Assembly: GCF_023028225.1 (NCBI RefSeq)
Contig: NZ_CP095482.1
Span: 1,054,001 to 1,118,000, forward strand
Direction: 5' to 3'
From: Halorientalis litorea
Lineage (GTDB): Archaea; Halobacteriota; Halobacteria; Halobacteriales; Haloarculaceae
Length of the DNA: 64,000 nt
Made by a program: the position numbers and the translations under genes. This document shows, piece after piece, positions 45,372-50,293 of the stretch (positions are counted from its first letter, which is position 1; every line of letters starts with the position of its first letter). The notes beneath the pieces were generated by a model, which was not told the origin of the DNA, searched no databases, and worked only from the letters and a program-made list of their open reading frames with translations.

Positions 45372-46592
45372 ATGTCCCGGAGTCCGTCGCTCCCGGACCG
45401 GCCCCGGCTGGACCTCGACCCCGATATGTCCCCTGCCGAACGGCTGGACGCGTTGCGGGAGCACTTCGTGAAGTTGGAACAGGTGAACGAGGAGTTGGCC
45501 GAACAACTGGAGTCAGCCCGCGAGCAGCGGAGCGAACTCCGTGAGGAAGTCGACCACCTCGAACGAGAGAACGAGACGCTCAAAACGTCCTCGCTGTACG
45601 TCGCTACGGCCGAGGAACTCACCGACGAGGGCGTCGTCGTCAAACAGCACGGCAACAATCAGGAGGTGCTGACGGAGGTGTCCCCACAGCTCCGCGAGGA
45701 CCTCGAAGCCGGTGACCGCGTCGCCATCAACGACTCGTTCAGCGTGCAAGCGATGCTGGAGGCCGAAACCGACGCCCGGGCACAGGCCATGGAGGTCGAC
45801 GCCTCACCCGCCGTTGCCTACGACGACATCGGCGGCCTCGAAGAGCAGATTCTCGAAGTCCGGGAGGCCGTCGAGGAACCACTCGTCAACGCCGAGCAGT
45901 TCCGCGAAATCGGCATCGACCCGCCGAGCGGGGTGCTCCTGCACGGGCCGCCGGGGACGGGCAAGACGATGCTGGCCAAGGCCGTCGCCAACCAGACCGA
46001 CGCCACGTTCATCAAGATGGCCGGCTCGGAACTCGTTCGGAAGTTCATCGGCGAGGGCGCGCGCCTCGTGCGCGACCTCTTCGAGTTGGCCTCCGAGCGG
46101 GAACCCGCCATCATCTTCATCGACGAGATAGACGCCATCGCGGCCAAGCGGACCGAGTCCAAGACCAGCGGGGACGCGGAGGTCCAGCGGACGATGATGC
46201 AACTGCTCAGCGAGATGGACGGCTTCGAGGACCGCGGCGAGATTCGCATCATCGCCGCCACCAACCGCTTCGACATGCTCGACCGCGCGATTCTGCGCCC
46301 CGGCCGGTTCGACCGCCTCATCGAAGTCCCCGAACCGGACATCGAGGGTCGGGAACGCATCCTCGAAATCCACACCGAAGCGATGACGCTCGCCGACAGC
46401 GTCGACCTCGGCGCGATTGCCGCCGAGACCGACGGGTTCAGCGGCGCGGAACTCGCCTCGCTGGCGACGGAGGCCGGGATGTTCGCCATCCGGGACGGTC
46501 GCACCGATGTCAGAACCGTCGACTTCGAGGACGCCATCGAGAAGGTGACCGAAGCCGACACCGAGGACACCGGGCCTATCGCGTTCTACTGA
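45372..46592 (+). CDS. pan: Proteasome-activating nucleotidase
   Basis: AAA ATPase that unfolds proteins for the 20S proteasome. 406 residues: coiled coil (about 20-75), OB domain, AAA module with GPPGTGKT (192-199), IIFIDEIDAI, the pore-loop region KFIGEGARLV and arginine finger NRFDMLDRAILRPGRFDR. The C-terminus reads GPIAFY: the usual hydrophobic-Tyr-X tail is replaced by Ala-Phe-Tyr. CCTTTTACG about 30 bases upstream is a TATA-like box. Confidence 0.95.
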   Translation: MSRSPSLPDRPRLDLDPDMSPAERLDALREHFVKLEQVNEELAEQLESAREQRSELREEVDHLERENETLKTSSLYVATAEELTDEGVVVKQHGNNQEVLTEVSPQLREDLEAGDRVAINDSFSVQAMLEAETDARAQAMEVDASPAVAYDDIGGLEEQILEVREAVEEPLVNAEQFREIGIDPPSGVLLHGPPGTGKTMLAKAVANQTDATFIKMAGSELVRKFIGEGARLVRDLFELASEREPAIIFIDEIDAIAAKRTESKTSGDAEVQRTMMQLLSEMDGFEDRGEIRIIAATNRFDMLDRAILRPGRFDRLIEVPEPDIEGRERILEIHTEAMTLADSVDLGAIAAETDGFSGAELASLATEAGMFAIRDGRTDVRTVDFEDAIEKVTEADTEDTGPIAFY

Positions 46593-46731
46593 CGCGCGCT
46601 CGTCGCTCGCGATTACCCATCCGCACTGGTGCCGACCCGGAGCGAAAGCCAGCGAGGTTAACGACCACCCGGGTTTATCGTGTTTGGTAAACGACACCAA
46701 TAGTTAATGACCTCGGTCACCCACTCACTGT

Positions 46732-48195
46732 ATGAGCGGACAGAATCAGCACCGACAAGACCGCCGTACTACTGGAATCAACGGTGTAGATGCAGTCCTT
46801 GGTGGTGGTTTATTGGCCGACTCCGCGACGCTCGTCCGGGGGCCACCCGGTTCGGGAAAGTCGATATTTACACTCCACTTTCTCGCTGCTGCCGACGCCG
46901 ACGAGACGGCACTCTACGTCAACCTCGGGGAACCCGATGAGTACGTCCGGTCGACCGCCCGTGGCTTCGGATTCGACGCCGATGCCCTCGAATTTCTCGA
47001 CCTCTCCCCTTCAGGTGACCGGTTCCAAGACGAGGAAACGTACACGCTGTTCCGGTCGGAGGACGTCGAAGCACCGTCGCTGGTCGAGGACATTCGCTCG
47101 CGCGTCGAAGCGGTGGACCCTGACCGGGTCGTCGTCGACCCGGCCACCGAGTTCAAGTACCTCACACCGGACGAACACCAGTTTCGCACACAGATTCTCG
47201 GACTCTTGGACTTCCTCAGGGACATCGGCGCGACGGTCCTGTTGACCTCACAGGCCGCGGATTCGATGCCCGACGACGACCTGCAGTTCCTCGTCGACGC
47301 CGTCATCAACATCGAAAAACAACCAAATCACAGGACGGTTCGCGTGTCGAAGTTCCGCGGGTCCTCTGTCGCGCGCGGACATCACACGCTCCAGATCTCC
47401 GATGCCGGAATGGAGGCGTGGCCACAGCTCAACCCCAACCGACACGGCCGAGAGTTCACTTCAACGACGCTCTCCTCGGGCGTTCCCGAGTTAGACGACT
47501 TACTGAAGGGAGGGCTTCCAACGGGAACGGTAACGTTTCTCAGTGGGCCCACTGGTGTCGGCAAGACGACGACAGGCATCCAGTTCCTGAGTGAAGCCGC
47601 CAAACAGGGCCACAAGACCGTTCTCTACAACTTCGAAGAAGACCGTCATACGCTGATGAGTCGTGCGGAGGCGATCGGTATCCCGCTCGCCGACATGGTC
47701 GACCGAGGGATGCTCGCAATCGAGGAGATAGGGCCGGGAGTCCTCTCTATCAACGAATTCACACACCGGGTTCGGACAGCAGTCGAAGACGAGGACGCCG
47801 AACTCGTGATGATAGACGGGACCAGCGGATTCAAGCGGTCGCTTCGTGGTGTCGGCTCCGACCCGATGGCACACCTCGTGACCATCGGCCGGTATCTCCG
47901 CAACATGGGTGTGACTGGCATCGTCAGTAACGAGGTCCACCAGATAACCGGCGAGTTCCGCGCCACTGAGAAGGGGACGAGTTACCTCGCGGACAACATC
48001 CTCGTCCTTCGCCACGTCGAGCACAGAGGAACGCTCCAGAAGGTAATCGGGGTCCTCAAGATGCGGACGAGCGACTTCGAGAACCAACTCCGACGGCTGG
48101 AAGTCACGGGCGACGGGTTACAGGTCGGCGAGTCGCTCTCGAACCTCCGTGGTATCCTGACCGGGACACCGAACTGGACCGAGGGGGGTGAGTGA
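46732..48195 (+). CDS. Double-domain KaiC/RadA-type ATPase
   Basis: 487 residues with two KaiC-like modules. Module one has Walker A GPPGSGKS (37-44), module two GPTGVGKT (272-279). In module two the catalytic glutamate pair is kept (LYNFEEDRHT); module one has a single Glu (VNLGEPDE), so the two halves may differ in activity, as in cyanobacterial KaiC. No phosphorylated Ser-Thr site equal to KaiC was identified. A TATA-like tagttaatga is about 27 bases before the ATG. It is followed by a LOV kinase on the same strand; a sensory output partner is inferred. Codon choice is less GC-rich than the neighbours. Confidence 0.9.
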   Translation: MSGQNQHRQDRRTTGINGVDAVLGGGLLADSATLVRGPPGSGKSIFTLHFLAAADADETALYVNLGEPDEYVRSTARGFGFDADALEFLDLSPSGDRFQDEETYTLFRSEDVEAPSLVEDIRSRVEAVDPDRVVVDPATEFKYLTPDEHQFRTQILGLLDFLRDIGATVLLTSQAADSMPDDDLQFLVDAVINIEKQPNHRTVRVSKFRGSSVARGHHTLQISDAGMEAWPQLNPNRHGREFTSTTLSSGVPELDDLLKGGLPTGTVTFLSGPTGVGKTTTGIQFLSEAAKQGHKTVLYNFEEDRHTLMSRAEAIGIPLADMVDRGMLAIEEIGPGVLSINEFTHRVRTAVEDEDAELVMIDGTSGFKRSLRGVGSDPMAHLVTIGRYLRNMGVTGIVSNEVHQITGEFRATEKGTSYLADNILVLRHVEHRGTLQKVIGVLKMRTSDFENQLRRLEVTGDGLQVGESLSNLRGILTGTPNWTEGGE

Positions 48196-48337
48196 CGGAC
48201 CCATGACGCCGGCACTCACAGCCAGTAGCGTGGTATCGACGTCGGCCTGTGGCACCACCAGTCCCGCCAGCGCAGAACGGTCACGGGGACGAGTCACTCC
48301 CGGAGAACAGGAGGGGTGGCCCGGTCCGAACGCGATA

Positions 48338-48344
48338 GAGGTGA
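48338..48344 (+). promoter_or_regulatory. Shine-Dalgarno site of the LOV kinase gene
   Basis: GAGGTGA ends three bases before the ATG at 48348 and pairs well with the 3' end of 16S rRNA. It supports this start and an internal position in an operon with the KaiC-like gene 152 bases upstream. Confidence 0.65.
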
Positions 48345-48347
48345 ACG

Positions 48348-50207
48348 ATGGAAACAAACGAACTGTCTGACCTCGTCGGAACCCGGGGCGAGACAGGTGC
48401 CGAAACCGACAGTTCGACGAGTATTTTGCCACTCGTGGCCGACAGCGGGAATCAGCGAGTCCTCCTCGAGTGGCTCACCGACCACGAGAGCTACGAGGCA
48501 GTCGAAGGCACGTCGAGTCCGTTCGAGGCCGACTTCGACCTCTGTATCATCGACGGGGGAACACTCCAAGAGTACCGAGAGGAATTGAAGACGGCGAAGG
48601 CAGACTCGGAACCCGTACTCCTGCCCGTGCTCCTCTTGCTCCCGGAGACACGGTCGGACGTCATCGAAACCGACGAGGGGGACATCGCCGACAACGTCTT
48701 TCCGACGACTATCGACGAAATCGTCTCGCTCCCGATTCGGCAGACCGAACTCGAGTGGCGAATCCAGTCGCTCCTTCGCCTGCGTAACCAGTCCATCACG
48801 ACACAGAGACAGAACGCGGAGCTCAGACTGTTCCAACAGGCCGTCGAGTCGACCGGGCACGCCATCTACATCACGGACACGGACGGTATCATCAAGTACG
48901 TCAACGACGCGTTCGAGGAGATGACCGGGTACACGCGTGCCGAGGCGGTCGGGGCGGACGTCAGCCTCGTTCATCCAGGAATCGAGTCGGAGGAGTACTT
49001 CCAAGAACTCCACGAGACGATTCGTAACGGTGAGGTCTGGGAGGGAGACATCGTCGACGAACGGAAAGACGGCGAGTCGTACACCGCCGCACAGACGGTC
49101 GCGCCGGTGTCGGAGGGCGGCGACGTGAGTGCGGTCGTCGCCGTCCAGAAAGATATCACCGAGCGCAGAGAACGGGAGGAGACACTCAAGCGGCGGACCC
49201 ACGCCATCGAGGAGACGCCGGTCGGGATTACCATCACCGACCCCTCTCGCGACCACAATCCGATGATTTACGTCAACGATGCGTTCTCCGAAATGACCGG
49301 CTACTCGCGTTCGTACGCTGTCGGGCGGAACTGTCGGTTCCTGCAGGGCGAGGACACGGACCCCGAGCGTGTCGGCCGAATTCGTGCGGCAATCGACGCA
49401 GAAGAACCGATTTCGATAGAGCTTCGGAACTACCGGAAAAACGGGACGGAATTCTGGAACCACCTCGAAATTGCCCCTGTCAGGGACGCCACTGGGACAG
49501 TCATCAATTGGGTCGGCTTCCAGCAGGAAGTCACCGAACGAAAGGAACGCTTACGACAGTTAGGTGTACTCGACCGCACACTGCGACACACTCTGCGCAA
49601 CGATATGAACGTGATTCGCGGGCACGCAGAGAGCATCCAGTCCCATGCGTCGACCGCGGTCGCGGAGTCGGCCGAGCAGATAATCGAGGCGAGCAACGAC
49701 TTGCTGGCGATGGCCGAGAAAGAGAAGGCTATCACTTCACTCCTGCGTGATAGGCCGCGGCAATTAGAGTTCGATATTCCGGTACTGCTTCGGTACGTTG
49801 CGGACGAGGTCCGGGCCGACCACCCCCGTTGCACAATCGACGTTGCGTGTCCCGAGGACGTGGCTGTAGTCGCATCAGAAGAGTTCGACGAGGGGGTCAG
49901 AGAGGTAGTCACGAACGCGGCCACTCACACCGACGCGTCGTCGTCCGAAGTTGAAATCACCGTCGAGGAGACCGGCGAGACTGTCTGTATCAGCATCGCC
50001 GATACCGGACCACAGATTCCCGAGATAGAGCGACAAATCCTGTTGGACTCCGAACCAGAGGTTCAGACGGAGTTACGCCACGGGAGTGGGTTGGGGCTGT
50101 GGCTAGTCAGGCTCATCGTCACACGGTCGAACGGCAGCATAGACGTTGCAGAGAACTCGCCGCGAGGGAACGTCATACGGCTGGAACTTCCGAGAGCGGA
50201 GACGTGA
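48348..50207 (+). CDS. Receiver-like/PAS/LOV histidine kinase
   Basis: 619 residues. Residues 25-145 resemble a receiver domain (DFDLCIIDGG, Asp69) whose later elements are degenerate. Residues 160-272 are a PAS domain. Residues 285-397 match a LOV photosensor: YVNDAFSEMTGYSRSYAVGR, NCRFLQGEDTDPE with Cys329, NYRKNGTEFWNHLEI (Asn361, Asn371) and VGFQQEVTER (Gln392/393). A single-residue flavin-adduct Cys and these polar flavin contacts define blue-light LOV domains such as YtvA. The kinase core has His414 (LRHTLRNDMN), the N-box Asn523 and GHGS-type GSGLGLWLV. No membrane segment. A light-driven kinase is a strong inference. Confidence 0.9.
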   Translation: METNELSDLVGTRGETGAETDSSTSILPLVADSGNQRVLLEWLTDHESYEAVEGTSSPFEADFDLCIIDGGTLQEYREELKTAKADSEPVLLPVLLLLPETRSDVIETDEGDIADNVFPTTIDEIVSLPIRQTELEWRIQSLLRLRNQSITTQRQNAELRLFQQAVESTGHAIYITDTDGIIKYVNDAFEEMTGYTRAEAVGADVSLVHPGIESEEYFQELHETIRNGEVWEGDIVDERKDGESYTAAQTVAPVSEGGDVSAVVAVQKDITERREREETLKRRTHAIEETPVGITITDPSRDHNPMIYVNDAFSEMTGYSRSYAVGRNCRFLQGEDTDPERVGRIRAAIDAEEPISIELRNYRKNGTEFWNHLEIAPVRDATGTVINWVGFQQEVTERKERLRQLGVLDRTLRHTLRNDMNVIRGHAESIQSHASTAVAESAEQIIEASNDLLAMAEKEKAITSLLRDRPRQLEFDIPVLLRYVADEVRADHPRCTIDVACPEDVAVVASEEFDEGVREVVTNAATHTDASSSEVEITVEETGETVCISIADTGPQIPEIERQILLDSEPEVQTELRHGSGLGLWLVRLIVTRSNGSIDVAENSPRGNVIRLELPRAET

Positions 50208-50293
50208 CTCGGACGGCGTAGTCCCAGACGGGCCAGTCCGTCTGGCGGCCGGTTCCGCGCCGCTCGCTCGTCCGGCAGCGGGCGTCCCGGTGT

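Follow-up and report, generated by a model that had tools for sequence, protein, structure and literature searches.

Why does a two-domain ATPase of the KaiC family stand directly before a blue-light sensor kinase in the genome of the haloarchaeon Halorientalis litorea, and does anything beyond proximity tie the two proteins together? The locus lies in a window of 64,000 nucleotides (contig NZ_CP095482.1 of assembly GCF_023028225.1, forward-strand positions 1,054,001 to 1,118,000), which is the whole stretch that we analysed. The first-pass annotation, made from the sequence alone, had read the pair as a light-responsive kinase acting with a KaiC-type timer or switch, and as a new archaeal signalling design. 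We examined the two genes, their surroundings and their relatives in archaea and bacteria.

Table 1. Features of the KaiC-kinase locus and its flanks, in positions of the window; residues are those of the respective protein
Feature	Position	Strand	Remarks
PAN (proteasome-activating ATPase)	45372-46592		flanks the cassette
Cassette between PAN and hisH, best read as inserted	46593..50293	.	from congener comparison
Double-domain KaiC-like ATPase	46732..48195	+	487 aa; ORF check, Pfam, alignment to solved KaiC
CI domain of the ATPase			residues 11-230
CII domain of the ATPase			residues 243-484
Spacer	48196..48347	+	152 bp, with SD-like GAGGTGA ahead of the kinase ATG
Histidine kinase PsR-PAS-LOV-HK	48348..50207	+	619 aa
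Pseudo-receiver (PsR)	48405..48815	+	about residues 20-156; proposed KaiC-coupling domain
PAS domain	48819..49187	+	residues 158-280; Pfam
LOV domain	49200..49562	+	residues 285-405, with C329, N361, N371, Q392/Q393
HisKA-like dimerisation region and HATPase_c	49557..50198	+	RHTLRN, residues 413-418
hisH	from 50294	-	flanks the cassette

The first gene encodes a double KaiC-type ATPase, as had been proposed at first pass. Pfam KaiC matches it (E=9e-68) over two stretches that correspond to two RecA-like KaiC domains, a solved KaiC aligns with it from end to end (E=1.5e-53), and Walker A motifs are found at residues 37 and 272. The catalytic FEE motif of CII is kept (E302, E303), and so is the serine at the position of KaiC S431, here S417; the Glu pair and Ser417 are invariant in an alignment of 18 diverse family members. 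The T432 position is occupied by Tyr, and mostly by Tyr, His or Asn in relatives, so that the dual phosphosite S431/T432 of circadian KaiC is present only in its Ser, the second residue being replaced. The protein also misses the cut-offs of the circadian equivalogs TIGR02655 and NF006799 (172.6 vs 546 and 244.5 vs 408 bits, respectively).

The second gene encodes a histidine kinase by its H, N, G1 and G2 boxes (the last three at 522, 552 and 579), in which PAS and HATPase_c exceed the Pfam thresholds and HisKA gives a weak match under its cut-off. The PAS domain and the LOV residues assigned in the first-pass annotation (Cys329 in NCRFLQGEDTD, Asn361, Asn371 and Gln392/393) are exactly as it stated. 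The best solved relatives of the LOV segment are genuine LOV photoreceptors (2pr5, E=6e-33), and the photoreceptor motif, comprising the GXNCRFLQ Cys and the Asn, Asn and Gln flavin contacts, is complete. From this full set of key residues, the LOV domain is predicted to be photochemically competent. A canonical haloarchaeal LOV domain with the GXNCRFLQG motif was reported in 2025 to be photoactive and to form a 390-nm adduct (PMC12202551). The N-terminal region of the kinase has no Pfam family match; we call it PsR, for pseudo-receiver, on grounds given below.

The two genes form a putative operon and are likely to be co-transcribed. An SD-like motif does precede the kinase ATG, in agreement with the good SD site noted initially, and the gap after the KaiC stop spans 152 bp. 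A sigma-70 and terminator scan gave nothing meaningful, its models being bacterial and the host an archaeon. In many relatives, KaiC is followed by tandem PsR kinases, one short and sensorless and one long with PAS/LOV (L059, L065, L066, L069, L071 and others). The short kinase is absent from the H. litorea locus, and the candidate leftover of such a gene in the spacer was rejected (best E=0.03).

Arrival of the cassette by insertion through transfer is the best reading of its surroundings and is well supported: GC3 is 0.73 and 0.74 in the KaiC and kinase genes, compared with 0.85-0.88 in the genes that flank them most closely, the corresponding slot is empty or differently occupied in congeners, and plasmids carry several of the closest KaiC relatives. 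The less GC-rich codon use and the possible transfer suspected at first pass thus both hold. Seven congeners keep the order pepF-PAN-slot-hisH-UDG; the slot is empty in two of them and holds, in the other five (in one of which, L157, the contig stops before hisH), a PAS-PAS kinase that shares about 28% identity with the kinase studied here. Within the genus, the PAN-hisH slot is a variable kinase site, which may be empty or contain PAS-PAS-HK or KaiC with LOV-HK (L153-L159). Members of the KaiC family on RefSeq plasmids are annotated as gvpD, and the context of one of them (L165) consists of signalling genes, not of gas vesicle genes. A reading as a defence system was rejected, since PADLOC gave only weak P-loop and HATPase cross-matches, and so was viral carriage, the 10 matches to viral contigs being all short or weak and in the P-loop region.

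We searched for relatives of KaiC and of the kinase in eight genomes from the genus and 292 from the class. Double-KaiC relatives occur in 187 of the 292, where the best relatives of the kinase are mostly the first or second gene beyond KaiC. When 80 KaiC loci were compared, nearly every KaiC was neighboured by a protein with the N-terminal domain of our kinase: the element that KaiC neighbours share is PsR, not LOV. A sample of 145 haloarchaeal genomes, which are not phylogenetically independent, contained 134 PsR matches and 112 double KaiCs; 119 of the 134 lie less than 5 kb from a double KaiC (100 of them downstream and co-oriented, 19 divergent) and 106 of the 112 have a PsR neighbour, the exceptions being 15 PsR domains away from KaiC and 6 KaiCs without PsR. 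Chance would be expected to produce well under one such linkage, by our estimate for genomes of about 3.5 Mb with roughly one KaiC each. The PsR profile was derived from KaiC neighbours and may under-detect unlinked sister families, a bias that the bacterial search described below softens. Counting co-occurrence, which the first-pass annotation had suggested, hence indicates that the pairing is not due to chance and that the neighbours are not random. Two loci (L106 and L118, in G276 and G127) belong to genomes with at least two double KaiCs, some of which lack a PsR neighbour. No non-signalling conserved neighbour was evident as an output gene, the recognizable recurring neighbours being other sensor kinases.

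The two partners also diverge together. Over 80 haloarchaeal pairs, PsR and KaiC distances are correlated (r=0.69, a value reached by 0 of 1000 permutations), and the partial correlation with KaiC is 0.57 for PsR given the kinase tail and 0.18 for the kinase tail given PsR. This co-divergence would fit a contact between PsR and KaiC and is not proof of one, the genes being co-inherited.

What kind of domain is PsR? A profile built from 56 members had no consistent match in Pfam; against the PDB it matched receiver domains, the best being PleD (E=1.5e-10), which bears out the degenerate receiver seen at first pass. More than 90% of members retain the phosphoacceptor Asp, and alignment with true receivers shows the loss of the acidic pair as well as of Thr/Ser and Lys. 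Because only the Asp of the set that makes a receiver phosphorylatable is kept, the domain fits the definition of a pseudo-receiver given in PMC12632262. An AF2 model has receiver-like topology at low confidence (pLDDT 61, three sequences), and a Foldseek search with this low-confidence model returned mostly receivers among its best matches, none below E=0.001. The PsR match list from the 145 haloarchaea contains nothing between E=4e-17 and 1e-8, which sets PsR apart from the ordinary receivers that abound in these genomes.

LOV is less constant. The Cys-LOV motif was found in 19 of 103 KaiC-associated PsR proteins, and close relatives have lost the LOV Cys, with Arg or Ser in its place; LOV is therefore an optional sensor of the platform. 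The idea of a light-responsive kinase working with KaiC thus stands in part: the pairing is not accidental and the LOV residues are complete, but light is not its defining part, since PsR is conserved instead. LOV-like domains linked to KaiC with Arg, Ser, Ala or Pro for the Cys (L060, L065, L082, L120, L121, L128) are natural losses of LOV chemistry. A simple pattern for the G2 box misses many of the PsR proteins, so that some PsR kinases may be degenerate.

The association extends to bacteria. Among the matches listed, a Halothiobacillus MAG encodes a KaiC that shares 45% identity with ours, with a PsR-GAF-GGDEF-EAL protein encoded next, and a contig scan for relatives gave at least 6 loci. 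When PsR by itself was searched against 369 genomes from the class of this MAG, 7 matches were found at E<=2e-19, the next being at 7e-12; 6 of the 7, the MAG included, adjoin KaiC and one lies away from it. Those KaiC-adjacent bacterial PsR proteins whose domains were scanned have a GGDEF-EAL output and no kinase. KaiC directly adjoins PsR-(GAF)-GGDEF-EAL in L141:5977-9729, L187, L188, L189, L191 and L192, and a PAS-GGDEF neighbour in L191 looked LOV-like but has Pro in place of the Cys. These sequences suggest that KaiC may control c-di-GMP in the bacterial relatives. On an Acaryochloris plasmid (L164:4723-8565), KaiC is flanked on one side by a divergent PsR histidine kinase and on the other by a hybrid kinase that matches PsR more weakly. 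In the KaiC tree, PsR-linked KaiCs form one clade, outside which fall the KaiCs without PsR of Agrobacterium, Sphingomonas and Burkholderiaceae. That a single PsR-linked clade has differing effectors implies that the output has been exchanged and the KaiC-PsR pair retained. The KaiC-kinase pairs of Agrobacterium and Sphingomonas, considered as candidate members, were rejected because they lack PsR and belong to a separate KaiC clade. A Burkholderiaceae MAG (L142:3918-6202) has a different KaiC, overlapped by an upstream histidine kinase without PsR.

Judging from the domain architecture, linkage, partner exchange, the lost catalytic residues of the receiver and co-divergence, all read from sequence, we consider it fairly probable that the locus encodes a KaiC-coupled signalling cassette, in which PsR connects a KaiC switch with sensors and effectors that can be swapped, blue light being here an added input. 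The double KaiC would most likely form a hexamer, whose ATP or phosphorylation state would act as a slow, adjustable switch. The partner kinase would dock onto it through the N-terminal PsR, which would relay the state of KaiC through the signalling helix, PAS and LOV into the histidine kinase. Kinase output would then be set jointly by KaiC state, the PAS signal and blue light, the latter through the flavin-Cys329 adduct. We infer that signalling runs from KaiC to the effector, a direction preferred because the effectors vary. Across the family, PsR would be the constant part and the rest would be swapped: the sensor may be LOV, another PAS/GAF domain or none, and the effector a histidine kinase in haloarchaea and Acaryochloris or GGDEF-EAL in the gammaproteobacterial relatives.

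The same gene order might be thought to arise from an ordinary blue-light sensor kinase that neighbours KaiC by chance and was co-transferred with it, the two serving separate pathways. The cassette is clearly mobile, haloarchaea are rich in histidine kinases, and other kinases recur nearby. Yet one specific domain is linked to KaiC in 119 of 134 cases in the 145 genomes, and co-transfer of a fixed pair would not lead one to expect the gammaproteobacterial linkage with a different effector; we regard this explanation as unlikely. We are similarly doubtful that the LOV domain here is photochemically silent, or a redox or flavin sensor for which blue light is not the physiological signal. Relatives do carry Arg, Ser, Ala or Pro for the Cys and most members have no LOV at all, but in this kinase the adduct and flavin-contact residues are all intact, and the canonical haloarchaeal LOV does make its adduct (PMC12202551).

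Two further explanations concern the partners themselves. It is quite unlikely that the N-terminal domain functions as a true receiver that takes its phosphate from the kinase it belongs to or from a different one, with the KaiC partner controlled only indirectly: the conserved Asp would suit this, but the remaining phosphotransfer residues are replaced and PsR also heads GGDEF-EAL proteins that have no kinase of their own. Very improbable, in our opinion, is a KaiC-based circadian clock with the LOV kinase as its entraining input, in the manner of cyanobacterial KaiABC with CikA/SasA. The double KaiC with its conserved catalytic Glu and the Ser at the S431 position, the pseudo-receiver in the kinase as in CikA, whose PsR binds KaiB (reviewed in PMC12632262), and the light-dependent rhythmic cir expression of Haloferax volcanii described in passages of PMC3941300 would all be in keeping with a clock. 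Against it, most family members have Tyr, His or Asn where T432 would be, LOV is optional across the family, and KaiB exceeded the Pfam cut-off in 0 of the 145 haloarchaeal genomes, this one included (a Synechococcus control was positive). Given the lack of KaiB, the missed equivalog cut-offs and the replaced second phosphosite, a KaiC switch is supported and a KaiABC clock is not.

Parts of the PsR-coupled cassette have precedents. KaiC-like signalling hubs in archaea were proposed in 2017 by Makarova, Galperin and Koonin (cited in PMC5847659) and, like the cassette, tie a KaiC-family ATPase to signalling proteins; the passages of that citing paper make no mention of a PsR dedicated to KaiC and joined to an exchangeable output, be it kinase or GGDEF-EAL. 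Archaeal LOV histidine kinases with the same REC-PAS/GAF-LOV-HK architecture and the canonical GXNCRFLQG have been described (PMC12202551), a paper that, unlike our results, mentions no link to KaiC. In Haloferax volcanii, according to passages of PMC3941300, cirC, the sole double KaiC among four cir genes, adjoins fixL, and its deletion abolishes the light-dependent rhythmic cir expression. Here too a haloarchaeal double KaiC has a sensor kinase as its neighbour; those passages describe neither a pseudo-receiver nor LOV. In a Haloferax larsenii locus, two PsR kinases come after KaiC, from which we infer that CirC/FixL of H. volcanii likely belong to the PsR-KaiC family. Cyanobacterial CikA, with SasA and KaiABC, is likewise a pseudo-receiver histidine kinase that reads or sets a KaiC oscillator; the cassette differs in having no KaiB, an N-terminal PsR, LOV and PAS sensors, and a KaiC under the circadian equivalog cut-offs. 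To call the pair a new archaeal signalling design was therefore too strong, as hubs, REC-PAS-LOV-HK proteins and the cirC-fixL adjacency were known and the design extends to bacteria.

In the papers covered, with Makarova et al. 2017 represented by its citation in PMC5847659, we found nothing on the PsR-KaiC pairing itself, so that its novelty is stated with caution; a review of 2025 was aware of no functional study of archaeal pseudo-receivers (PMC12632262). We are evenly divided on whether PsR is a previously undescribed family, a dedicated docking domain for one double-KaiC clade of archaea and bacteria that would provide a KaiB-independent platform into which LOV or other sensors and phosphotransfer or c-di-GMP outputs can be plugged. 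That a KaiC clade and the PsR family are paired almost one to one gives archaeal KaiC-like proteins a concrete contact that can be tested. In H. litorea the KaiC partner doubles as a complete blue-light sensor, so that a single cassette of two genes would allow light, the state of KaiC and kinase activity to be studied together.
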